From NCBI GenBank assembly GCA_003647385.1, contig QMMT01000020.1:1-12109 (forward strand): DNA of 12,109 nt, given 5' to 3'. The DNA comes from Deltaproteobacteria bacterium (GTDB taxonomy: Bacteria > Desulfobacterota > Desulfobacteria > Desulfobacterales > Desulfobacteraceae). This document shows, piece after piece, positions 1-11,989 of the stretch (its first letter is position 1; each line of letters opens with the position of its first letter). Below the pieces are notes generated by a model that was not told where the DNA came from, ran no database searches, and saw nothing but the letters and a program-made list of their open reading frames with translations. Made by a program: the position numbers and the translations under genes.

Positions 1-2146
1 CGATAATATAGAGCATCAGCCTGGATGTTGTGTTTTGCTGTTCGATCAAAGACAGTTTTTTAAAAAACTGTCGGCTCTTGTCAAAATTCCTGGTACAAAA
101 ATTGAGCACCCCTGCTGCAAACAACAGGACAGGATCATTTCTTTTTTTAAGCATGGTTTCACATAAATCAGCCGCTTGTTTGAATTCATGTTCAACTGCA
201 AGGCTGGCAATCTGTTCAAGTTTGGATTCCAGAGAAAAATCAAGAATGCCATCCCAATGGGGCTGACCCGTCTTAATTGATTCAATAAACTTGGCCGGTC
301 GTGAAATGGGTAAAATGAGGCCAAAATCAGATAAAGGTGTGTTGATTTTAAAATATCCGCTTGTCTGATCTGTTACCACCCCGGATGCAATCCCGATGAC
401 ATGACCTTTTGCATTGATGGCAGGCCCCCCACTGTTTCCTTTATAAATAGAGGAGTCCACCTGGATGATTTCTTTGGATATCCTTCTGACATATCCTCTG
501 GTAATACTTGTATTGATGTGGTCATCCTGGGTCCGTTTTCCCAAGGGAAAACCTAAAATCATCACGGGTGACAGACGCTTAATATCATCAGAAGCAATGG
601 TTGTTTCTATGGGTAAGGGTTTTAAACGGGAAGGAAGTGTATCAATTTTTAAAACTGCAAAATCGTTTTTAAATGGGGATTTAATCATTTCCCCGGTTTT
701 TGCAGAAGACCTTGGGACCCCGACAATTTTCAGGTTTCCCTGGCCGCCTGTGCTGTATGCGGACGAAAGATAATAAGAATCAGATAATTGGGCATTATTG
801 CTTAATGCGGGTAACCGGTTGAATGCCTTTTCACCTTCAAACCACAAATACATCCTGTAGTCAAATTCAATGGTTTTTTTTAAAATAGCATACTGACCAT
901 ATACTTGAAAAAGGGAGGTGTCATCAAGCCACGGACAGGCGACATGACGGTTGGTCAGAAGGTATCCCTGAGTGTCCACAAGAAAAGCCGTGCCTTCCAC
1001 TCTGTTTTTATATACAATTTGTTCGGTGTTTGTCAGCCAGTATTCAACCATTAGAAATGCAATAGAACCGGCATAGGATTCAACAAAATTAGAAAGTATC
1101 ACATCTTTTTTGTTTTTGTCAAAATTGACATATAACCATGAAACGGTACCAATGGTAACGATTCCTGCAATAATTAAAATCAGCATCACAACCACTTTTT
1201 TAAACCATCTCAATTCTTTAAGCAGTTTGGGCTTTTTTTTATTGGATGATGGCGGCCCGTCAGAATAGGGCAGCCGGTCTAAGATGTGTGATAATGCAGA
1301 TACCACCTTGCCCATGGTTTGGGGTCGCAGATCCGGGTCGTCCGACAGCATGATTTTGATCAGAACGGCAAGCTCAGAGTCCAGACTTTCTATTTCATCA
1401 ACCCTTGAAGAAAAGTCTTTCAGGTTATGGTCTGCGGTTAAAAGCTCAATAAATATTTTTCCAAGAGACCAGATTCCGCTTTTAAAATCAATGGCTCTCT
1501 GGTTGATGATATCCGGGTGGCATTCAAGCAGCTTCTGTAGCATGGGACCGTGGTGGGTTGCCCTTGCATTTAAGAATCTGGATAGTTTGTAGTTGATTTT
1601 TACACAGAGCTCTTTTGTTTTTCCCTTTGGGATCAGAATATCTTCAAGAATCAGGTAGGGCATGAAATGATCTTTTTTGTGCAGAAGGTCAAGTACTGAT
1701 GCGATATTGTGAAAAAGAGTGACCACCCGTCGCGGGTCATTTAATAGATCCGACATAAAGATAGAGCCCCAATCGTTTGCATCGACCCATTCACTGACCC
1801 TGTACCAGAGCCCTTTACTGCTTTTTTTGATGGCATAATGCTGAACAAAGTGCTCGGGTGGCAGTTTGTTGAGCTCCTCAAGTTCTGCCACAAGCCGGCT
1901 GGCAATACGGGTATCTACACCGGATGTTTCTGTGAATAATCTGATGGAGACCGGCTTCTCACCATGGCCTTTTTTTGCAGAATCTTTTTTAGCTTTGCAA
2001 ACAAGGGAGGAGTGGCCTTCGTGAATGATAGCTAAAATCTTGTAATCGTCAATATATTTTATGCCGTCTACAATGGAGCTGCCGCAGGCCGGGCACATTG
2101 TAATTTTTTGAGAGATAATTTGTCCGCATGATTTGCACTGTTTCAT
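1..2146 (-). CDS. Membrane pseudokinase / trypsin-like serine protease fusion with N-terminal zinc ribbon (partial, C-terminus off the left edge)
   Basis: An open frame of 715 codons starts at the ATG complementary to 2144-2146 and runs off base 1 without a stop. Residues 4-21 hold a CxxC...CxxC zinc ribbon (Cys 4, 7, 18, 21). Residues ~35-290 follow a Ser/Thr kinase fold, with a WSLG motif and a following ELLT, but the catalytic residues look lost: the glycine loop is degenerate (IIHEGHSSLV), the VAIK lysine is Arg69, the HRDLKPEN region reads MPYLILED and DFG reads NYK. A basic stretch then a hydrophobic helix (~318-340) predict N-inside topology, placing the rest in the periplasm. Residues ~370-622 are a trypsin/HtrA-type protease with His401 (TNRHV), Asp495 (NDFAVLKI) and Ser572 (GNSGGP). 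Residues ~640-700 look like TPR-type helices. The architecture recalls T6SS PpkA (cytoplasmic kinase, one TM, periplasmic domain), with a protease in place of the von Willebrand domain. It is divergent from the T6SS operon. The substrate is unknown. Confidence 0.88.
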   Translation of the reverse strand, partial: MKQCKSCGQIISQKITMCPACGSSIVDGIKYIDDYKILAIIHEGHSSLVCKAKKDSAKKGHGEKPVSIRLFTETSGVDTRIASRLVAELEELNKLPPEHFVQHYAIKKSSKGLWYRVSEWVDANDWGSIFMSDLLNDPRRVVTLFHNIASVLDLLHKKDHFMPYLILEDILIPKGKTKELCVKINYKLSRFLNARATHHGPMLQKLLECHPDIINQRAIDFKSGIWSLGKIFIELLTADHNLKDFSSRVDEIESLDSELAVLIKIMLSDDPDLRPQTMGKVVSALSHILDRLPYSDGPPSSNKKKPKLLKELRWFKKVVVMLILIIAGIVTIGTVSWLYVNFDKNKKDVILSNFVESYAGSIAFLMVEYWLTNTEQIVYKNRVEGTAFLVDTQGYLLTNRHVACPWLDDTSLFQVYGQYAILKKTIEFDYRMYLWFEGEKAFNRLPALSNNAQLSDSYYLSSAYSTGGQGNLKIVGVPRSSAKTGEMIKSPFKNDFAVLKIDTLPSRLKPLPIETTIASDDIKRLSPVMILGFPLGKRTQDDHINTSITRGYVRRISKEIIQVDSSIYKGNSGGPAINAKGHVIGIASGVVTDQTSGYFKINTPLSDFGLILPISRPAKFIESIKTGQPHWDGILDFSLESKLEQIASLAVEHEFKQAADLCETMLKKRNDPVLLFAAGVLNFCTRNFDKSRQFFKKLSLIEQQNTTSRLMLYII
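51..72. repeat. Perfect 22-bp palindrome inside a coding region
   Basis: The half-site GACAGTTTTTT is followed directly by its exact reverse complement, AAAAAACTGTC, with no spacer. It lies inside the pseudokinase-protease gene, where it encodes the residues RQFFKKLS. The FFKK codons in an A/T-rich gene explain the central twelve bases; the flanking GACAG/CTGTC arms complete the symmetry. It may be a chance result of codon choice or a binding site. No function is assigned. Confidence 0.5.
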
Positions 2147-2234
2147 AGCAAAGACTCTTTAGCCGTTTTTAAAGTTTGCATGAAGATGTATGGCAAACTC
2201 AAGTTAATCATCGCAAGACATGGTATTTTCCTTT

Positions 2235-2263
2235 ATAATAAGGTGTTTAGCAAAAATAGTCAA
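2235..2263 (-). promoter_or_regulatory. Sigma70-type promoter driving the pseudokinase-protease gene
   Basis: On the minus strand TTGACT (complement of 2258-2263) is followed by exactly 17 bp and then TATTAT (complement of 2235-2240). Each hexamer matches the TTGACA/TATAAT consensus at five of six positions, with ideal spacing. Transcription would begin near 2228, leaving a leader of about 80 nt before the ATG at 2146. AAAGAG, about 8 nt ahead of that ATG, is a weak ribosome binding site. This is consensus matching only. Confidence 0.55.
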
Positions 2264-2366
2264 GAAAGAGAAAAAGATCTGTTGGATAAAATCCAATATC
2301 TGTCAGCCATAGAGGATCGTTTTATTGACGGATTCAAAACAAAGGGGAAATAAGCCGGAGAACGCC

Positions 2367-2379
2367 TTAACACCGTTAA
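2367..2379. repeat. Short inverted repeat, possible operator
   Basis: TTAAC-acc-GTTAA is a 5-bp inverted repeat with a 3-nt spacer. It overlaps the putative -35 region of the rightward promoter candidate, where an operator could act. It is short and A/T-rich, so chance occurrence is quite possible, and no regulator is encoded nearby. Confidence 0.25.
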
Positions 2380-2488: not shown

Positions 2489-4417
2489 ATGGACGAAACA
2501 ATTTCACTGCTTCCGTTTATTGAATCCGGGGGAGAAGGTTTCCTCCTTGATATTCCTGTGTTAGACTCGGACAGGAATTTATTTCAGGGATATTCATATC
2601 TGTTTCAAATCGTTGACAAAGGACAGCATCTTTCAATTATAGTCAAGGCTGGATTAAAGATCAATGATGCCGACCGGTTTAAATCTCTTTTTTTACTGGT
2701 TCAACGGGATGATTACCCAATCTTACCTGATGATTTGACCCCCTTTACAAATGTCAGTATCGACAGGATCTGGCTTGAAACAATACAATCATATTCCAAA
2801 GATAAAAATGTCTTTATCGTTCCGAAACAATTAAGCCGGGAAGGAAAGGCCACTGCCTTCCGATCGCTTTTTTATTGTAAAAAACAACAAAAATTTTTTC
2901 ATCCGCCATGCCCTGAATGTGGGACCGAACTTGATCTTTGTCAGGATGATACCCTGTTGATAAGCAAATCGCTTCCCCCTTTTTCTACGTCGTTAAAGCG
3001 ATATCTTTTCTGCCCCAGGTGTCATGCTGCCAAAACAAATTATGAGTTTTACCAGTTTTCCCGTTCTGCTGATGACCCAGTTTTTACGAAAGATCGGTTT
3101 GATCTTATCAAGGATTTCAGTAAGCTGAGAAGTGCAGTTTCCAGCAGTTTTCCCTGTCCTGACTGCCCCGGCCACGCAGAGTGTTACATCACCGGGGAAA
3201 AAGCGGCATCGCATATCAGTTTTTTTTCTTTTTATCCCTTTCACATGCTTTTTTTTGATGCCCAGCCCATAAAAGCAATTGATTTTCTCTCCTTGATTTC
3301 CGGGGCACCCTTTGAAAGAATAAATGCGTTTCCCACTACAGTATCGGGGTCTGGTCGGGGAGGAGAAAGCCCACTCTCTCAGGACAACATTCCATTTTTT
3401 TTTGAGGGGGATGAAAGATTTTTCTTAGAAGTCCTTTTTTTAAAGCTTTGTTTTTTTGAAGAATTTTTTCGCTCTCTTTATCAAAGGGTTGAAAAAGAGA
3501 GCTATCCCCTGCTTAATTTATCTGCACAAAGCATCTGGATAAGGCCCCAGTCCACAGGGAACAGTCTTCCTTTTTTCTGGAGTTTCAAGTTGAGCATTAT
3601 TGACCTGATGGTTAATTCTCCGAGAAATTATATTCACTCTGTTCTGTCAAAAAACAGCAGTTTGCACTTTATGGCGTCACTCTGGTTTCATACCTTTCTT
3701 GTGAACGAAAATCAGGGACAGGATAAGGTGTATGAGGAGATTGGGAAACTGGTTGAAACGGGTTTGGACGATGGTCTTCTTTCTGATTACAATCAGTTGA
3801 TCAAAGCGTTTCCATCTGTGGCAATGGAAAATATTTTCTGGAATCCTGATGATAGACCCACCCCCCAGAAGTGGCATCAATTTTGGTTAAGGATTATTGT
3901 GACGGGGCTTTCTTTTTTTAATGGCAAAAAAGAACAGGGTCTGGATCATGAATTAAATCAGTTGATTAATAAAATTACAACCCTGAAACAGGAAATAAAA
4001 GAAGAATTGTTTTCAGATCAGAAAAAGGTTAAGTCTTCAATAGAGGAAACACCAGGGGCAGATAAAGGTCAGGTGCTGCCGTCATCTGAAAAACAGGCCA
4101 TTTTATTGATCCTTGAACAACTGAAAACAAAATGGGCTGACCAGAAAGAATTGTCCCCTGATTTCGATGATGATGCACTGGAAACCATTGTGCTTTCGTC
4201 TGACGAGATGGAACAGGATGCAGGTTTTGATGACATAGTTGAAAAAACCATGGTCATGATGCCCGCGCCGCAAACAGAACCCGCCGAGGATGGTGGATTT
4301 AACGATATGGAGGAAACCGTCATTATATCTTCGCCAGAAAAAACACATCAAGAATCTGATTTTTTCAGTGAAGATGATGACCTTGATAAAACGATTGTAA
4401 TAACCCCCAAAAAATAG
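2489..4417 (+). CDS. Zinc-ribbon protein of unknown family with a repeated Thr-motif acidic tail, T6SS-associated
   Basis: This 642-aa protein is predicted to be cytoplasmic, with no signal peptide or clear membrane helix. I do not recognise its family. Cys pairs at 141/144 (CPEC) and 175/178 (CPRC) look like one zinc ribbon, with Cys151 nearby; a second cluster, CPDC at 223-226 with His229 and Cys232, may be another metal site. The middle (~240-480) is rich in aromatic residues without recognisable motifs. Residues ~485-525 are charged, helical and probably coiled coil. The last 80 residues are acidic and low in complexity, and carry four motifs of the form (D/E)(K/E)T-hydrophobic-V/I centred on Thr566, 587, 610 and 635. 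The ATG is preceded by an in-frame TGA at 2465 with no other start between, so the start is firm although the ribosome site is weak (GGGGAT). It is the first gene of the operon, 19 bp before the FHA-C-like gene. A scaffold or phospho-acceptor role in T6SS control is inference. Confidence 0.85.
   Translation: MDETISLLPFIESGGEGFLLDIPVLDSDRNLFQGYSYLFQIVDKGQHLSIIVKAGLKINDADRFKSLFLLVQRDDYPILPDDLTPFTNVSIDRIWLETIQSYSKDKNVFIVPKQLSREGKATAFRSLFYCKKQQKFFHPPCPECGTELDLCQDDTLLISKSLPPFSTSLKRYLFCPRCHAAKTNYEFYQFSRSADDPVFTKDRFDLIKDFSKLRSAVSSSFPCPDCPGHAECYITGEKAASHISFFSFYPFHMLFFDAQPIKAIDFLSLISGAPFERINAFPTTVSGSGRGGESPLSQDNIPFFFEGDERFFLEVLFLKLCFFEEFFRSLYQRVEKESYPLLNLSAQSIWIRPQSTGNSLPFFWSFKLSIIDLMVNSPRNYIHSVLSKNSSLHFMASLWFHTFLVNENQGQDKVYEEIGKLVETGLDDGLLSDYNQLIKAFPSVAMENIFWNPDDRPTPQKWHQFWLRIIVTGLSFFNGKKEQGLDHELNQLINKITTLKQEIKEELFSDQKKVKSSIEETPGADKGQVLPSSEKQAILLILEQLKTKWADQKELSPDFDDDALETIVLSSDEMEQDAGFDDIVEKTMVMMPAPQTEPAEDGGFNDMEETVIISSPEKTHQESDFFSEDDDLDKTIVITPKK
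4166..4405 (+). repeat. Four diverged copies of a T-h-V/I motif in the acidic C-terminal tail (protein-level repeat)
   Basis: Residues 560-639 of the 642-aa protein contain ALETIVLS (Thr566), VEKTMVMMP (Thr587), MEETVIISS (Thr610) and LDKTIVITP (Thr635), each preceded by an acidic DD or ND cluster and spaced 21, 23 and 25 residues apart. Thr followed by aliphatic residues in an acidic setting is the kind of site phosphorylated by bacterial Ser/Thr kinases and read by FHA domains. The DNA copies are diverged, so the conservation is at the motif level. Confidence 0.7.
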
Positions 4418-4436: not shown

Positions 4437-5168
4437 ATGACTGAACCGATTCAATATGAAAAGATAGAAGACCATATAATAAGGATTTTTAAAGAACAAA
4501 GGACTAATCCTGATCTTTTGGTAACTGAGTACCTTGAAAATGAATTAGCAGCACTTGATTTGTCAGATAAGACTAAAGCTCTGGACAAATTGATTGAGTT
4601 ATTTGGTCCCCAGGATCATGGAAATAAAAAAACCGACGTCCTGCCAGAGGATGACCATGTGTTGGCCAGAGTAATTAAACTTCTTCTGGGTCGCGAAATT
4701 TCCCAGGTGGATCTCAGTTCAGAAGAACTTTTAGAAAGTCTGGGAGAATCAATCAATACAGTCTTTGAATCATTAAATCAATTGATTAGCGTTATCAATA
4801 CGACTCTGGTAGGTAAACAGGACTCCGATGAAACCATACGACAGGTTATTGGATATCATCTTGAAGGAAGTCAAAACACAAGCACTCTGGAAAAATATAT
4901 CGGCCAGATAGGCAAAGCTTTTTTCGCTTCCCAGGAGGCTTCCAAAAAAGCAGCACATTCCAAGGTGATGCAAATTTTAGAAGAGCTTGCACCTGAGAAA
5001 ATTGAAAAAGAGGCGGATGTTTCAAGACTCAGCCCTATGCGCAAATCCAAGTATTATGAAGTCTATGAACTAAAATTTAAAAAATTTGAGAAATGGTTTG
5101 AATCAGGACGATTTATGGAGTCTTTTTTAAGAGAATTTGAAAGGAATTGTCAAAAAATATCATTTTAA
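4437..5168 (+). CDS. T6SS FHA-protein C-terminal-domain-like protein (TagH/Fha type) lacking an FHA domain
   Basis: This 243-aa, mostly helical protein is predicted to be cytoplasmic. Residues ~75-243 resemble the conserved C-terminal domain of T6SS FHA proteins (Fha/TagH): a hydrophobic segment (VLARVIKLLLG), a long helical stretch with an FxSQEAS..A region, a LEELAPEKIE segment, and the closing signature MRKSKYYEVYELKF...FLREFER (~201-237), which corresponds to the family's R-K-(A/S)-k-x-W-x-x-Y-...-F-x-x-x-F-x-x-a-y ending. Full-length members carry an N-terminal FHA domain of ~100 residues; here the first ~70 residues are helical and acidic with no GRS or SxxH-type FHA motifs, so the phosphothreonine-binding module is absent. 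It lies 19 bp after the Thr-motif protein and 12 bp before tssJ. In other T6SSs Fha promotes assembly after phosphorylation by PpkA. The assignment rests on remembered family pattern, not a search. Confidence 0.7.
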   Translation: MTEPIQYEKIEDHIIRIFKEQRTNPDLLVTEYLENELAALDLSDKTKALDKLIELFGPQDHGNKKTDVLPEDDHVLARVIKLLLGREISQVDLSSEELLESLGESINTVFESLNQLISVINTTLVGKQDSDETIRQVIGYHLEGSQNTSTLEKYIGQIGKAFFASQEASKKAAHSKVMQILEELAPEKIEKEADVSRLSPMRKSKYYEVYELKFKKFEKWFESGRFMESFLREFERNCQKISF

Positions 5169-5180: not shown

Positions 5181-5720
5181 TTGGAAAAAATTATAAAATT
5201 ATTATTATCTGTTTTTATCACCCTGTTTGTGTTCTCATGCACTGCAAAAGTTCTGCCTCCTCCCCAGTGGACCTATGAAAAGGATGCAATTAAACTTCAA
5301 GTGATTGCAGACCCCAGGTTGAACCTTGATGATGAAAAGGCACACACACTTCATGTCTGTGTTTACCAATTAAAGGATCCCAATGGATTTAATCAGCTCT
5401 CAGGTGATCAGAGCGGACTTTACAAGCTTCTGGATTGTAAATTGTTTGATCAGAGTGTTGCGGCATCAAAGCGGTTGATTGTTCATCCGGCAGAGGATAT
5501 CACACTGGCTTTGGACCGTGCGGAAAATGCAAAGTATCTGGCCGTGGTGGCAGGATACTATGACATTGTAAAAGAACGAATCACACGACTCATTGAAATC
5601 CCGGTTGTTATTGAAGAAAAAGGATTTTTTTCTAAAGAAAAAAAGCAGAAACCAGGTATACTTGATGTTAAACTTTTTCTGGGACCTCAACAGATCGATA
5701 AAATTGAAGGGCATCAATAA
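5181..5720 (+). CDS. tssJ: T6SS outer-membrane lipoprotein TssJ
   Basis: This 179-aa protein starts at TTG. Residues 1-20 form a lipoprotein signal: basic N-terminus (EKIIK), hydrophobic core, lipobox VFSC with Cys20 as the lipidation site. The mature part fits the TssJ beta-sandwich: a KLQVIADPRLNLDDEKAHTL segment near residues 35-55 matches the family's 'hNxxxxgxaxpl' opening, followed by hxVCVYQLKDPNGF and L-Y-K-L-L-D. A basic loop and a VVAGYYD strand come near the end. The length is typical. TssJ anchors in the outer membrane and binds the periplasmic C-terminus of TssM. Its TAA overlaps the ATG of tssK by one base, implying translational coupling. Confidence 0.92.
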   Translation: MEKIIKLLLSVFITLFVFSCTAKVLPPPQWTYEKDAIKLQVIADPRLNLDDEKAHTLHVCVYQLKDPNGFNQLSGDQSGLYKLLDCKLFDQSVAASKRLIVHPAEDITLALDRAENAKYLAVVAGYYDIVKERITRLIEIPVVIEEKGFFSKEKKQKPGILDVKLFLGPQQIDKIEGHQ

Positions 5721-7105
5721 TGGCTAAACCTCTTTTCTGGCATCAGGGGCTTTTTCTCCAGCCACACCATTTTCAGTTAAATGATCTTTATAACCGATCG
5801 CTTTCCGAACCGTGGTATAAATTCATGGCCCCTCATTTTTGGGGAGTTGGAAACCTTGGAATTGATGAATCTTCTCTGTCCAATTATGTGTTTGATATGA
5901 AGTCCGGAGAATTTCTTTTCCCTGATAACACTCATGTCATCATTGGTGAAAATGGTGTAATACAGGCCAGGTCATTTGAAAAGGCCTGGGAGGATGGAGG
6001 AAAATCTTTTTTAGTCTATCTGGGCTTAAAAAAGTGGGATGAGAACGGAGAGAATGTTTCTGTTTTAGCAGACTATAATGATTTGTCACCTGTATCAAAC
6101 CGCTTTGTTTCCTTAACAGCACCTGAAGAGGTAGGAGACCTTCATGGAGACGGTCCCAAGGCTGAAGTCAGGCGGATGAGTTTTCTTGTCAAAATATTCT
6201 GGGAGACTGAAATTGATCATAAGAGTGATTACCAGCTGATCCCCATTGCCAGGCTTAAAAAAAATCTGGAAGAAATAGAGATCAGCAATAATTTTATCCC
6301 GCCATGCCTGACGATTGCAGGTTCAGGGATTTTAATGGGGATTATCAAGGAAATAAAGGATCAGCTTTTTTCTAGGGCTCGGCAGCTTGAGGCGGTCAAA
6401 AGATCCAAAGGCGTTCACACGTCAGAGTTTGGATCAAGAGATATGGTATATATGCTGGCATTACGCTCGCTGAACAGATATGTACCGCTTTTAACCCATT
6501 TGACCGCCACTATTCAAAGCGGACCCTGGGCAATCTACGGTATTTTAAGGCAGATTATCGGAGAACTATCCTCTTTTTCAGCAGACATATCCGCCGGCGG
6601 AGAACTTGAGGATGGCACAGCTCTTTTATTGGAATATAACCATAAAAAATTATGGGAATGCTTTACAGGCGCACAGCAGCTGATCACTCAACTTCTGGAT
6701 GGAATAACATCAGGGCCTGAGTATATCATTCCTCTTCATTTTGACGGTACGTATTATACCGCTGAAATACCTCCTAATATATTTGAAGGAAGGAATCAAT
6801 TCTTTCTGGTCATGGAATCTGAAGGAAATGCGGAAACCATCATTGAATCCATGAAGCATATCGCAAAATTGAGTGCCCGGGAGTCTCTGCCCATCCTCAT
6901 TGCCCAGTCTCTGCCGGGCGTTAAGCTTAATCATCTTGAAATACCCCCACAGGAACTTCCTCGAAAAACCGCTTCAACCTATTTTAAGGTTGATCACCAT
7001 GGAAAACAATGGGAGCCCGTACAAGGGGGGAACAATATAGCTCTTTACTGGGATACAGCACCTGAAGACCTTAAGGTTGAATTAATGGTCGTGAGGAGGA
7101 ATTAG
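5720..7105 (+). CDS. tssK: T6SS baseplate-membrane complex linker TssK
   Basis: This 461-aa cytoplasmic protein opens with the family signature WHQGLFLQPHHFQ (residues 7-19), the TssK N-terminal hallmark. Length and the three-part layout (N-terminal beta shell domain, helical middle with the LNRYVPLLTHL segment, and a C-terminal beta domain ending VELMVVRR) fit the family. TssK trimers join the baseplate TssFG to the cytoplasmic parts of TssL and TssM. The start overlaps the tssJ stop (TAATG). The 3' end contains GAGGAGG, which serves as the ribosome binding site of tssL 4 bp downstream. Confidence 0.96.
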   Translation: MAKPLFWHQGLFLQPHHFQLNDLYNRSLSEPWYKFMAPHFWGVGNLGIDESSLSNYVFDMKSGEFLFPDNTHVIIGENGVIQARSFEKAWEDGGKSFLVYLGLKKWDENGENVSVLADYNDLSPVSNRFVSLTAPEEVGDLHGDGPKAEVRRMSFLVKIFWETEIDHKSDYQLIPIARLKKNLEEIEISNNFIPPCLTIAGSGILMGIIKEIKDQLFSRARQLEAVKRSKGVHTSEFGSRDMVYMLALRSLNRYVPLLTHLTATIQSGPWAIYGILRQIIGELSSFSADISAGGELEDGTALLLEYNHKKLWECFTGAQQLITQLLDGITSGPEYIIPLHFDGTYYTAEIPPNIFEGRNQFFLVMESEGNAETIIESMKHIAKLSARESLPILIAQSLPGVKLNHLEIPPQELPRKTASTYFKVDHHGKQWEPVQGGNNIALYWDTAPEDLKVELMVVRRN

Positions 7106-7109
7106 AAAG

Positions 7110-7784
7110 ATGAGACTTTCAGATTGTTTTACCGATATCATTTCTTATACAATCTTGCTCCAAAAAAAGCAGGGGTTGGAAAACATACCCTTTGATCAGG
7201 CCAGTGCTGGTATGGAAAGACTTAACAGGGAGAGTGAAGTTTTTTTTGAAAAAAGTGATGCTACCAGGGAAGACTATGATCTGGCCCGGTTTGCCGTTTT
7301 TGCATGGGTTGATGAAACCATTATGAGCGGTTCCTGGGAGGGTAAAATCCAATGGCAGGGAGAACAGCTTCAACGCAAATATTTCCAGACATCTGATGCA
7401 GGCGAACTCTTTTTTTCGAAACTCAACACCATCGGTCCCCATCAAAATCATGTAAGAGAGGTCTATTATATCTGCCTGGCACTGGGGTTTACCGGCCAGT
7501 ATTGCAATCCGGGAGATGACATGCTTTTAGATCAGTTGAAAACATCAAATTTAAAGCTTTTAACAGGAAGTTCCGTGGATCTGCCCTCCATGGACCGAAT
7601 CAAGCTCTTTCCCGACTCCTATGTGACGGACCATGAACCGTCTGAAACAGCCGGTCAAAAACGGTTTTCAATTTTGACTCTTGCCGCCTTCCTGGTTCCG
7701 GTGGGCTTATATGGCGTGCTGTTTTTGATTTATAAATTTGTTTTAAATAATGTTGGAGAAACTTTAATCAGCAGGATACCTTAA
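7110..7784 (+). CDS. tssL: T6SS inner-membrane protein TssL (DotU/IcmH family), short form
   Basis: This 224-aa protein has the DotU-type helical cytoplasmic domain: DYDLARFAVFAWVDETIM (residues ~51-68) and WQGEQLQRKYF (~79-89) match the conserved '(R/K)yaLaAxlDE' and 'W...sLq..fF' blocks, followed by EVYYICLALGFTGQY (~115-129). One C-terminal transmembrane helix lies at ~188-212 with a few residues after it, so the protein is a tail-anchored inner-membrane subunit. There is no peptidoglycan-binding OmpA-like extension, unlike 'evolved' TssL proteins. It pairs with TssM in the membrane complex and contacts TssK. Its ribosome site GAGGAGG is 10 nt upstream inside tssK, and its TAA abuts the ATG of tssM. 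Confidence 0.95.
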   Translation: MRLSDCFTDIISYTILLQKKQGLENIPFDQASAGMERLNRESEVFFEKSDATREDYDLARFAVFAWVDETIMSGSWEGKIQWQGEQLQRKYFQTSDAGELFFSKLNTIGPHQNHVREVYYICLALGFTGQYCNPGDDMLLDQLKTSNLKLLTGSSVDLPSMDRIKLFPDSYVTDHEPSETAGQKRFSILTLAAFLVPVGLYGVLFLIYKFVLNNVGETLISRIP

Positions 7785-10700
7785 ATGAAAAATCGGCTTG
7801 CGTTTCTGTTTAAAATTTTTTTGATCATTGCCTTGGTTGCGTTTATTGGCGTTGCAATTTTTGCAGGGGTTGTATGGGCCAGGTGGCCGTTATGGGTCTG
7901 TTTCTTTATTGCCGCCGGCGTTATTGGAGTTTTTCTAGGCATACTTTTTTTCCGCAAGCTGCTTTTGAAAAAAAAGGAACAGAAATTTGTAAGTCAGATC
8001 ATTGAGCAGGACAGCGCTGCATTGAAATCTGCTGACAAAAAAGAGCGGGAAGTATCAAGAGAGATGCAGGCCAAATGGAAAGAAGCCATGGAGGCCTTAA
8101 AAAAATCCCACCTGAAAAAGCAGGGTAATCCATTGTATGTTCTTCCCTGGTATATGATCATCGGAGGAAGTGGAACCGGGAAAACTACCGCCATTAAAAG
8201 TGCAAAGCTGTCCTCTTCCTTTGCTGAGGTCAGCAGTGTATCTGGGATATCGGGTACACGCAATTGTGACTGGTGGTTTTTTGAACAGGCCGTCCTCATT
8301 GATACAGCCGGAAGATATGCTGTCTCTGTGGATGATGAACGGGACAGAGATGAGTGGCAGAAATTTTTAGGACTTCTTTCACGGTATAGGAAAAAAGAAC
8401 CGCTAAATGGCTTGATTGTAACTATTGCCGCAGATTCATTAAATAACATGGACGCAGAAGGGCTTGAAAAGTATGGCCGGGATATCAGAAAGCGCTTAGA
8501 TGAGCTGATGCGCGTTCTGGATGCAAAGTTTCCGGTCTATATCATGGTCACGAAATGCGATCTCATTCAGGGAATGACCCATTTTTCCGATTGCTTCAGT
8601 GATGATGTATTAGGCCAGACCATGGGGATCGTGAATCATGGTCTAAAAAAAGATCCCATGGGACTTGTCTCGGATTGTTTCAGGACTATGGGAGAGAGGA
8701 TTCGAGATATCCGGCTGCTGCTTATGCAAAAGCTTGAAAGCCGCAAAATCAGCCCTGAACTCATCCTTTTCCCCAGCGAATTTGAAAAAATCAGGCCGGG
8801 ATTTGAAGCCTTCATCAAAGGAGCTTTTCAGGAAAATCCCTACCAGGAAACCCCTTTTTTCCGTGGCATATATTTTTCCAGCGGCTGTCAGGAAGGAACG
8901 CCTTTTTCCCATTTCTTAAAAGATTTAGGGGTCATTGGGGAACAGGAGGTTCTACCCGGTACCAGCAAGGGGCTATTCCTTCACGACTTTTTTTCATGGC
9001 TTCTTCCATCTGACAGAGGGCTTTTCAGGGTGACTCAACGGGGGGCTGCATGGAAAAGGTTGACCCGGAATATTGGATTTGCGGCCTGGACTGCCATTAT
9101 TATCGCTTTTTGTGGTATTTTGAGTTATTCTTTTGTGAAAAACCTTCATACCATAAAAACAGCCTCTGCCCAGTTTGCCGGCCCCAGGATACTCCAGGGA
9201 GAAGTGATTTCAGATATTTCTACTCTGGAACAATTTAAACATACCATAAAAACGGTTGAAAATAGCAATGGCAGGTGGTGGATTCCACGGCTTGGCCTTA
9301 ATGAGAGTATTGAGGTAGAGGAAGAGCTTAAGAAAAAATACTGTATACTGATGGAAAAAAGATTTGTTGCCCCCCTTGATAAGAAAATGTTTGATAATAT
9401 GGCATATTTTAATTCATCCACACCAGTTGATGTCATCATCAGCCATGTGGATCATCTGGTAAAACGGATAAACCTCATTAAAGCCAAATTATTAAATCAT
9501 CCGGTTGAAGAGTTTGAGAAGATGGGACAGCCGGTTTTCAATACAGTGGAAATTGGGGCAGGCCAGGATATTGCTGAAGATATCCAGTTAAAAATCAAGG
9601 ACCTTTATCTTTATTATCTGCTCTGGCAGGAGGATACCCAGTCCATAAATCAAGGAATGAACGATTTACAGCAATGGCTGGCGCGGGTTCTTTCCATTAA
9701 AGGATCTAACCTGAACTGGCTTGTTGCCAGGACCAATTCAGATCCTCAATTGACCCCGTACACACTGGCGGATTTCTGGGGGGAAGCAGTCCGGGAAACC
9801 AAATCCGAACGGGTTGATTCAAGTTTTACCCTTAAAGGAAAAGAAAAGATTGATGGATTTATCAGTGAAATTGAAACAGCATTGACCGATCCTCTCATTT
9901 TAGCCGGCCGGAAGCGCGAATTTTACAAATGGTATAAAACCGCCTATCTTACAGGATGGTTGAATTTTGTTGCCCAATTTGACACCGGCAAAAAAAATCT
10001 GAAAACCCGGGAACAATGGCTAAATATCTCAACGATTGCAGGCGATAAAAAAGGTCCGTATTTTTCTTTACTTCAAATCATCATCCATGAGCTTAAATCC
10101 TTTTTTGATGAGAAAAATTTGCCGGAATGGATAAAGCTGGTCCGAGATCTCAATAACCTGCAAAGCCAGGCCATAACCCTCAGAGCTCAGAAAACAGGTT
10201 CAAGCGGTATTATAGGTCAGGCTGCATCAAGGGTGAAATCAAAACTGGCAAGCGCAACCCATACCAGTGGTGTTATCAACACCCACCTGGATGCCGGGGC
10301 AATGATGAAGGCGGGTAAGATGTTTATGACGTATCAGGATGCTCTTGCCAACATTATTCCATCTGTTTTATCTCAAAGGGCGGCATTTGAGTTTGCAGCC
10401 TCCATTTATACTGAAGACCCTGCCACAAGCACGATCCCATTTTTTACTGCCCGAAAAGCAGTCAATAAACTTAAAGCAATCGTGGTATATACGGGGAAAG
10501 AACCCGCCTATATCTGGGAAATTTTTGAAGGGCCGCTGAATTTTTATCATGAATTTGCCTTGCAGGAAGCATCCTGCCAACTTCAAAAGAAGTGGGAAGA
10601 AACTGTATTAATGGAGATGAAAGATGTCTCAGATAAAAAGAATATTAACACTCTTCTTCTGGGTCCTGAAGGGGTTGTAACAAATTTTTTAAAAGGACCT

Positions 10701-11273
10701 GGCAAGCCATTTGTAAAAAGAGGGTTAAAAAAGGGATTTTATTCAGCCAAGGTCAATGGAAAAAGTATGGCATTTGACCCCTATTTTTTTAAATTTCTCA
10801 CCCGGGGCGTTACGGCTTCCAAACCGTTAAAAACAAACTATAGTGTGAAGATAAGCGGATACCCGACCAGTGCCAATGAAGAGGCTCAGGTACAGCCCCA
10901 TGCCACAGTACTTGAACTCGCCTGTGCCGATGGCACAACCACACTGGAAAACCGCAACTATCCCGTCAGGAAGATATTCCTTTGGGTTCCCCAGTCAGAC
11001 TGTGAAGTGATTTTTAAGATCAAGATCGGCAGTCTTGTGCTGGTCAAAAAATATACGGGTCCCCTTTCCTTTCCTAAATTTTTGAAAGCTTTTTCAAAGG
11101 GACAACACAGATTTATCCCATCTGATTTTCCAGATGCTGAAGATGACTTAAAAAGAATGAGAGTCCGGTTTATCAAGGCAAAGTATGGATTAAAAGGGAA
11201 TAAACCCGTCGTCAGGTTGTTAGGTGCTGTCCCCGGGAAGACGCCTATGGAGATTGTTAAATGCTGGGATTAG
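7785..11273 (+). CDS. tssM: T6SS inner-membrane core protein TssM (IcmF family)
   Basis: This 1162-aa protein has the usual family length. Two N-terminal transmembrane helices lie at ~7-30 and ~34-56. The cytoplasmic NTPase-like domain follows, with Walker A GGSGTGKT (127-134, Lys133), IDTAGRY with Asp173 (the family DTAGRY block) and TKCD (256-259). A third transmembrane helix lies at ~430-452, and the rest is periplasmic: helical repeats, then the C-terminal beta domain (~1010-1162) that binds TssJ. The Walker A motif is intact, whereas some TssM proteins have lost it, so nucleotide binding is plausible. TssM forms the trans-periplasmic channel with TssL and TssJ. The gene starts directly after the tssL stop, and its 3' end overlaps the next gene by 13 bp. 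Confidence 0.97.
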   Translation: MKNRLAFLFKIFLIIALVAFIGVAIFAGVVWARWPLWVCFFIAAGVIGVFLGILFFRKLLLKKKEQKFVSQIIEQDSAALKSADKKEREVSREMQAKWKEAMEALKKSHLKKQGNPLYVLPWYMIIGGSGTGKTTAIKSAKLSSSFAEVSSVSGISGTRNCDWWFFEQAVLIDTAGRYAVSVDDERDRDEWQKFLGLLSRYRKKEPLNGLIVTIAADSLNNMDAEGLEKYGRDIRKRLDELMRVLDAKFPVYIMVTKCDLIQGMTHFSDCFSDDVLGQTMGIVNHGLKKDPMGLVSDCFRTMGERIRDIRLLLMQKLESRKISPELILFPSEFEKIRPGFEAFIKGAFQENPYQETPFFRGIYFSSGCQEGTPFSHFLKDLGVIGEQEVLPGTSKGLFLHDFFSWLLPSDRGLFRVTQRGAAWKRLTRNIGFAAWTAIIIAFCGILSYSFVKNLHTIKTASAQFAGPRILQGEVISDISTLEQFKHTIKTVENSNGRWWIPRLGLNESIEVEEELKKKYCILMEKRFVAPLDKKMFDNMAYFNSSTPVDVIISHVDHLVKRINLIKAKLLNHPVEEFEKMGQPVFNTVEIGAGQDIAEDIQLKIKDLYLYYLLWQEDTQSINQGMNDLQQWLARVLSIKGSNLNWLVARTNSDPQLTPYTLADFWGEAVRETKSERVDSSFTLKGKEKIDGFISEIETALTDPLILAGRKREFYKWYKTAYLTGWLNFVAQFDTGKKNLKTREQWLNISTIAGDKKGPYFSLLQIIIHELKSFFDEKNLPEWIKLVRDLNNLQSQAITLRAQKTGSSGIIGQAASRVKSKLASATHTSGVINTHLDAGAMMKAGKMFMTYQDALANIIPSVLSQRAAFEFAASIYTEDPATSTIPFFTARKAVNKLKAIVVYTGKEPAYIWEIFEGPLNFYHEFALQEASCQLQKKWEETVLMEMKDVSDKKNINTLLLGPEGVVTNFLKGPGKPFVKRGLKKGFYSAKVNGKSMAFDPYFFKFLTRGVTASKPLKTNYSVKISGYPTSANEEAQVQPHATVLELACADGTTTLENRNYPVRKIFLWVPQSDCEVIFKIKIGSLVLVKKYTGPLSFPKFLKAFSKGQHRFIPSDFPDAEDDLKRMRVRFIKAKYGLKGNKPVVRLLGAVPGKTPMEIVKCWD

Positions 11274-11989
11274 GCAGACCAAAATCCACTATTGAATTTT
11301 CGGCTTATGGGAAGCATCCGGCTTTTAATGATTATTTCAGTTTGAATATAGATTCTCCTTTGGCCAATGCCTTGTCCGCCTGGGCTGAAAAGGGTACAAA
11401 ACTTAAGGGAGATCAGAAAAATAATACAATGATCCGATCGTTTCGTTTCTGGGTCAAGGGGGTAAATAAGGGTGAACTTGTCCTGGGGGTTATCAGGGAC
11501 AGCAGTGACCGGATGGGACGGTCTTATCCCCTTCTCATCATGGGCAGAGGCTCCGTGAAAGATTGGGACAAAAAATGGCATTATATCTTCACACGATTTG
11601 AGCCTGTTTTTCGAAGCTTTGAAGATGTAAGTGCTTCGCGGTATGACAGTTTTAAAGCGTTTGAGGAAAAATTGATAAAAATTAGATTTCCAACGTCTTT
11701 ATCAATTCATGAGGATGAAAGATCCAGATTACCGGAAATAATGATGGCCTGGTTCAGGAAGGATCAGGAAAAAGGGGCACTCGCCCTTCCGGTCGAAACA
11801 CTTTTGAGTAACGCTGATGTGTATTCTCATCCCAAAAAAGGTTGGGGGGTGTTTAAAAAAAAAGAAGCAATGCCAGGAGCTGTTTTTTTAGGAGGTCTGC
11901 CCGAGAATCCCGGGCTGACAATCTATACCAGACCTTTAAAGGCTGAAGATTTTCTGACTCTTTTTAATATATCCACTGGTGGGGAATAA
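11261..11989 (+). CDS. tagF: TagF-like T6SS accessory protein
   Basis: This 242-aa soluble protein has a TagF-type N-terminal domain. AYGKHPAFNDYFSL (residues 15-28) corresponds to the family block 'GKlPaxGDF', with Asp24 kept but the Gly before it replaced by Asn. W41 fits the following '...W' position, and DSSDRMGRSYPLL (80-92) matches the 'PSxDxxGRxFPL' block with Asp replacing Pro. A second half (~125-242) is less conserved. TagF is a post-translational repressor of T6SS assembly in Pseudomonas and Agrobacterium, acting with Fha and PppA; here no PppA phosphatase is fused or adjacent. Its ATG lies inside the tssM end (13-bp overlap) with GGAG about 8 nt upstream, so it is probably translationally coupled. 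The family assignment is firm; a repressor role in this organism is inference. Confidence 0.83.
   Translation: MLGLGRPKSTIEFSAYGKHPAFNDYFSLNIDSPLANALSAWAEKGTKLKGDQKNNTMIRSFRFWVKGVNKGELVLGVIRDSSDRMGRSYPLLIMGRGSVKDWDKKWHYIFTRFEPVFRSFEDVSASRYDSFKAFEEKLIKIRFPTSLSIHEDERSRLPEIMMAWFRKDQEKGALALPVETLLSNADVYSHPKKGWGVFKKKEAMPGAVFLGGLPENPGLTIYTRPLKAEDFLTLFNISTGGE

Follow-up and report, generated by a model that had tools for sequence, protein, structure and literature searches.

Does a gene that joins a dead kinase to an intact protease serve the T6SS genes beside which it stands? The window, the whole stretch of 12,109 nucleotides analysed here, is one entire contig (C20) of a metagenome assembly of 3.07 Mb in 611 contigs, 81% complete and with 5.28% contamination; its nearest relatives suggest that the host is a Desulfobacula. 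Its left end carries the gene in question, KP (pseudokinase-protease gene), for which the first-pass annotation had proposed a role in the T6SS.

Architecture and distribution of KP

The features of KP in the window are:

2..2146, (-): KP; 715 aa of ~1,032, C-terminus lost at the contig end
2081..2146, (-): Cys4 zinc ribbon (C4, C7, C18, C21); Pfam Zn_ribbon_3, E 0.005, below cut-off
1268..2047, (-): pseudokinase domain, residues ~34-293; alignment, profile alignment and model
1127..1195, (-): transmembrane helix, residues ~318-340 (by eye); hydropathy and charge, 143 rows
269..1066, (-): HtrA-like S1 protease, residues ~361-626; triad H401/D495/S572, GNSGGP motif
2..241, (-): TPR-like helical tail, start only; Pfam in relatives and model, complete in relatives to residue ~1,028

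KP belongs to Desulfobacterales, a group of sulfate reducers, where it is conserved as a single-chain protein of the inner membrane. Homologue comparison gives family members of ~1,035 aa with a constant domain order, from N- to C-terminus a Cys4 zinc ribbon, a pseudokinase, a single membrane helix, a trypsin domain of the HtrA type and, last, TPR-like helices. This anatomy, with its full protease triad, had been read, tail apart, from the window itself and is borne out by Pfam, a 143-row alignment and a structural model; the model and fold comparison give a kinase-like domain and an HtrA-like protease. The closest copy (P0001) has 1,032 aa and 99% identity across the 715 residues of the window; the 81% complete host assembly yielded neither the missing C-terminus nor rarA. 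KP was counted in 41 of 145 genomes, chosen by eye as full or clear partial matches; the truncated copy of G008 and the divergent one of G053 are included, a decayed copy with stop codons (G110) and a 29-residue match (G048) left out. Outside the order it occurs, at E 1e-30, in at least two of 296 other genomes sampled from the phylum, a lower bound because scoring covered no more than two candidates in each genome. One named match belongs to a Verrucomicrobia MAG (33% identity). Among cultured relatives, Desulforhopalus singaporensis DSM 12130 and Desulfosarcina alkanivorans PL12 have homologues.

We note some unusual copies. In G008, a single-contig genome, KP consists of zinc ribbon and pseudokinase only (~294 aa; L058:9188-10069) with unchanged neighbours; the two halves are therefore separable, and the short copy is either decayed or a sign that the zinc ribbon-pseudokinase half can act alone. 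The G110 copy (L057, G110:C35) is reduced to pieces with in-frame stops. The remotest homologue (L056, in G053) has 28% identity to the window and is followed, in the same orientation, by a reading frame of 2,028 aa.

The zinc-ribbon cysteines are kept in 136-139 of the 143 rows, the remaining rows being gapped. In the kinase-like domain R69 replaces the VAIK lysine, Y164 the HRD aspartate and N185-Y186-K187 the DFG motif. These losses, already noticed in the single sequence, proved to be family-wide: no row has the kinase lysine (one is gapped), the HRD aspartate or the DFG glycine, and the DFG aspartate is retained in 38/143 and missing in 105/143. The HRD site reads MPY/H and the DFG site N/D-Y-K. 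No catalytic Lys/Asp/Asp was seen at shifted positions by profile alignment, and the assignment as a degenerate kinase stands. Structural kinase features are retained, namely the alpha-C Glu88 (142/143), HPD at the APE site, W226-S-L-G229 and R274. R69 is conserved in 138/143 rows; D169 is invariant, as are W114, Y115, R116, S118 and W120 of the hinge strand WYRVSEW. The mean frequency of the commonest residue is 0.74 in the kinase region and 0.72 in the protease, with 0.49 in linker and helix and 0.58 in the TPR tail; columns conserved to at least 98% number 56/261 in the kinase region and 66/266 in the protease. The kinase region is conserved on a par with the protease, and the dead kinase is therefore under constraint. 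Such conservation would point to a retained binding role.

Charge across the 143 rows places the N-terminus inside, and by topology the protease is periplasmic; the model shows a helix at residues 312-361. The catalytic triad His401/Asp495/Ser572, reported as complete in the window, is invariant across the alignment. The protease is clearly HtrA-like, yet falls far under the NCBIfam cut-offs for every named HtrA group. A Pfam scan of four full-length members at E 0.05 matched TPR models, below cut-off in P0001 and above it in P0086, and detected no PDZ domain in any of the four. Judging from topology, KP would carry out its proteolysis in the periplasm.

Comparison with known systems

KP shares with the HtrA/Deg proteases (DegS, DegP, DegQ, AlgW) the protease fold, the triad, the GNSGGP motif and the predicted periplasmic side; it differs in having a TPR-like tail, with no PDZ detected, and a cytoplasmic zinc ribbon and pseudokinase of ~300 residues. 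DegS, too, has a single N-terminal helix as its membrane anchor. A second parallel is LapD-LapG, in which the LapD receptor domain is a degenerate GGDEF-EAL and LapG is a cysteine protease. In this pair a cytoplasmic receptor controls periplasmic proteolysis (PMC3032545, PMC3032553, PMC4359373), an arrangement that the anatomy of KP suggests it may share. The c-di-GMP receptor LapD and the protease LapG are separate proteins, whereas KP is one chain with a kinase fold and a serine protease.

PpkA, as described in PMC12607579 and PMC3953482, resembles KP in its kinase fold, one membrane helix and periplasmic domain; it is however an active kinase, whereas KP has lost the catalytic residues and shows no association with the T6SS. 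Among pseudokinases, GLW, DYD, ActPs3/MviN and EssB are membrane-linked like KP, and DYD also has the beta-3 Arg; as far as the text available to us extends, none is described with a protease, which KP has (PMC12599244). The words trypsin and peptidase are absent from the available text of PMC12599244. Set against the descriptions given there, KP is not a DYD pseudokinase, since the alpha-C Glu88 that DYD lacks is kept in 142/143 rows and the motif is N/D-Y-K; nor is it a GLW pseudokinase, since the HRD site is MPY/H, the beta-3 residue is Arg and not Leu/Trp, and the GLW that KP does have is found ahead of the hinge, at 112-114 (PMC12599244). Assignment as a defence gene was also rejected: the PADLOC matches (RT-Protease, PD-T4-6 kinases, mad6, PDC-M35A) are at the level of domains only, and the neighbours, named by reading their sequences, appear to be housekeeping genes. 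Among the literature matches listed, which mostly do not cover subscription papers, there is no description of a pseudokinase-trypsin protein.

KP does not travel with the T6SS

KP and the first T6SS gene are 342 bp apart and divergent. The T6SS side of the window reads:

2489..4417, (+): orfA, first T6SS gene; kinase-like fold by model, outside the KP system
4437..5168, (+): match to the C-terminal domain of T6SS FHA proteins; E 5e-5, 23.5 bits, cut-off 23.7
5181..5720, (+): tssJ; profile/family match
5720..7105, (+): tssK; profile/family match
7110..7784, (+): tssL/dotU; profile/family match
7785..11273, (+): tssM; profile/family match
11261..11989, (+): tagF; profile/family match

Homologues with the domain order of KP had been expected to recur beside tssJKLM if KP served the T6SS, and they stand apart from it. 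BLAST found no match to the window T6SS proteins (orfA to TagF) in 38/38 KP loci of relatives, nor in 78/78 named KP loci, whose genomes overlap those of the 38; 41 of the 78 have at least 3 kb on both sides and many are cut by contig ends. In the control, TssK, TssL and TssM each match 16/16 fetched T6SS loci and the other window T6SS proteins 10 to 15, these 16 loci having been drawn from stronger TssK matches. Divergent T6SS types may be missed because the queries were the host's seven T6SS-side proteins. Twelve other ORFs of the fetched T6SS loci match some KP loci and were taken for general flanking genes.

Counting by genome gave the same picture. TssK is found in 54/145 genomes, in 15/41 of those with KP versus 39/104 of those without (Fisher p=1.0), so 26/41 KP genomes have no TssK match. 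Two other genomes have both KP and TssK on one contig, separated by 3.95 Mb and 1.93 Mb; adjacency is absent from every other genome examined.

The host has another candidate for T6SS phosphorylation control. Another of its contigs, C76, carries in order an FHA protein, a TPR protein, a deacetylase, a membrane protein, a kinase and a PP2C phosphatase, followed by F5, a thiolase-like gene. The kinase retains VAIK, HRD and DFG and is PpkA-like; the membrane protein and the kinase each match Cache weakly, below cut-off. The intact kinase and the phosphatase that follows it (L163, G000:C76, 3905-6242) are likely the T6SS phosphorylation pair of the host genome. The FHA and kinase families were searched in seven hand-picked genomes (the host and six others), and in 6/6 of the others a double-FHA gene and a kinase gene lie on one contig with TssK, at a distance of 22-58 kb. 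DNA identity between C76 and the corresponding block of G076 is 65-71%.

Adjacency in the window speaks for a role of KP in T6SS regulation, with its protease acting at the meeting point of TssJ and TssM. Set against the T6SS-free homologous loci, the lack of association by genome and the host's FHA protein, intact kinase and phosphatase, whose block is found near the T6SS in relatives, such a role is scarcely credible, and the T6SS neighbourhood of KP is probably incidental. Of the first-pass annotation the anatomy holds and the T6SS role falls; sensor-gated periplasmic proteolysis we keep, conditionally, below.

orfA

The gene adjoining KP behaves differently: orfA tracks the T6SS, TssK being present in 23/24 orfA genomes (p 6e-11, 145 genomes). 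Structure prediction alone gives its product a kinase-like fold; the product also has nine invariant Cys and a disordered tail in which Thr motifs recur at T566, T587, T610 and T635. It may serve the T6SS as a scaffold that FHA proteins read. No FHA domain was detected in the product of 4437..5168; FHA domains sit on a separate protein (C76, L163:2-436), and there are two in G076. Among the literature matches listed, with subscription papers mostly outside their coverage, we found no description of a pseudokinase in the T6SS.

Probable insertion of the T6SS cluster beside KP

The DNA between KP and orfA divides into:

2147..2328, no strand: KP 5' spacer; matches DNA upstream of KP in relatives
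2329..2375, no strand: junction; among the matches listed, KP-type upstream homology stops before it

Among the matches listed, the spacer homology extends to 2268-2292 in seven of the closest loci and to 2328 in L007. One T6SS locus (L072) matches 44 bp from 2376 with its DNA upstream of orfA; the main T6SS homology follows from 2486. In the Desulfobacula/Desulfobacter group, rarA-like and der-like genes often follow KP (18 loci each) and F5 precedes it in 11 loci, the names rarA-like, der-like and thiolase-like having been assigned by reading sequences. No conserved partner gene was seen in the 4-kb flanks outside this group. The F5-KP spacer measures 119-266 bp in three of the 11 loci with both genes and 0.9-3.8 kb, with other content, in the remaining eight. 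Different inserts are found in the spacers of L033, L034, L036, L040, L046, L047, L048 and L061. The spacer is a possible insertion hotspot.

In the host, KP adjoins the orfA end of the T6SS genes and F5 adjoins the PP2C end of the C76 block, three bases past the PP2C end and convergent. Relatives suggest that C76 is the far end of the window's T6SS cluster; the stretch between C20 and C76, two separate contigs, is unassembled. With F5 and KP presumably at opposite ends of the T6SS cluster, the simplest reading is that the cluster was inserted into the F5-KP spacer, which probably happened, judging from these two contig ends. A chimeric contig, in which KP would not truly adjoin the T6SS, is what one might suspect of a metagenome assembly with so many contigs and some contamination, the more so as the adjacency is seen in no other genome examined. 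Yet C76 independently joins a T6SS-associated block to the gene that precedes KP in relatives, and at the four nearest loci, among the matches listed, the 78-82% DNA identity of the C76 F5 resembles the 79-84% of KP. The matching ends of C20 and C76 therefore make a chance misjoin unlikely, and we consider a chimera very improbable.

Proposed mechanism and alternatives

In the proposed mechanism the cytoplasmic pseudokinase would bind a ligand or a protein partner, and the membrane helix would relay its state to the periplasmic protease on the same chain. The TPR tail, in place of PDZ, may select periplasmic substrates or hold an assembly together. KP would thus work like LapD-LapG, with a receptor gating a periplasmic protease, but within one chain. 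We give even chances to the reading of KP as an inner-membrane single-chain receptor-protease under inside-out control, with the adjoining T6SS incidental by insertion. Two observations count against it: outside the Desulfobacula/Desulfobacter group the 4-kb flanks show no conserved partner gene, and the short G008 copy has no protease half. A more specific version is offered tentatively, as a possibility we would not yet back: a pseudokinase pocket conserved for binding would gate the HtrA-type protease inside-out, and orfA would be a second, hidden pseudokinase that is truly T6SS-linked.

KP could instead be a constitutive quality-control protease of the DegS/DegP/DegQ type, in which pseudokinase and zinc ribbon merely anchor or localise the enzyme and gate nothing. 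The HtrA-like character of the protease domain, despite its scores far below the cut-offs for named groups, would fit, as would the lack of a conserved partner gene in 4-kb flanks beyond the Desulfobacula/Desulfobacter group. A pseudokinase as conserved as the protease, with invariant hinge residues, exceeds the needs of a simple anchor, and no PDZ was detected in the four full-length members; we regard this alternative as unlikely, if still one to reckon with. Somewhat less probable again is that the kinase-like domain keeps some chemistry, be it atypical phosphorylation, AMPylation or another transfer, with the protease regulated by it or separate. Kinase-like folds with other transfer chemistry are known in SelO and SidJ, and DYD pseudokinases, with their beta-3 Arg, are predicted to bind ATP (PMC12599244). 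The conservation of R69, Glu88 and D169 and the partial retention of the DFG aspartate are in keeping with such activity; the loss of the HRD aspartate and DFG glycine in every row, and of the DFG aspartate in most, argues against it.

Implications

For KP, a T6SS link suggested by one window was removed by comparison of many genomes, and the same comparison points to the adjoining orfA as the truly T6SS-linked gene. An earlier description of the KP architecture was not found among the literature matches listed. If the receptor-protease reading is true, KP would be an inside-out signalling design new among those matches, and the proteolysis that is presumed to be its output shares a chain with the pseudokinase and can be assayed.
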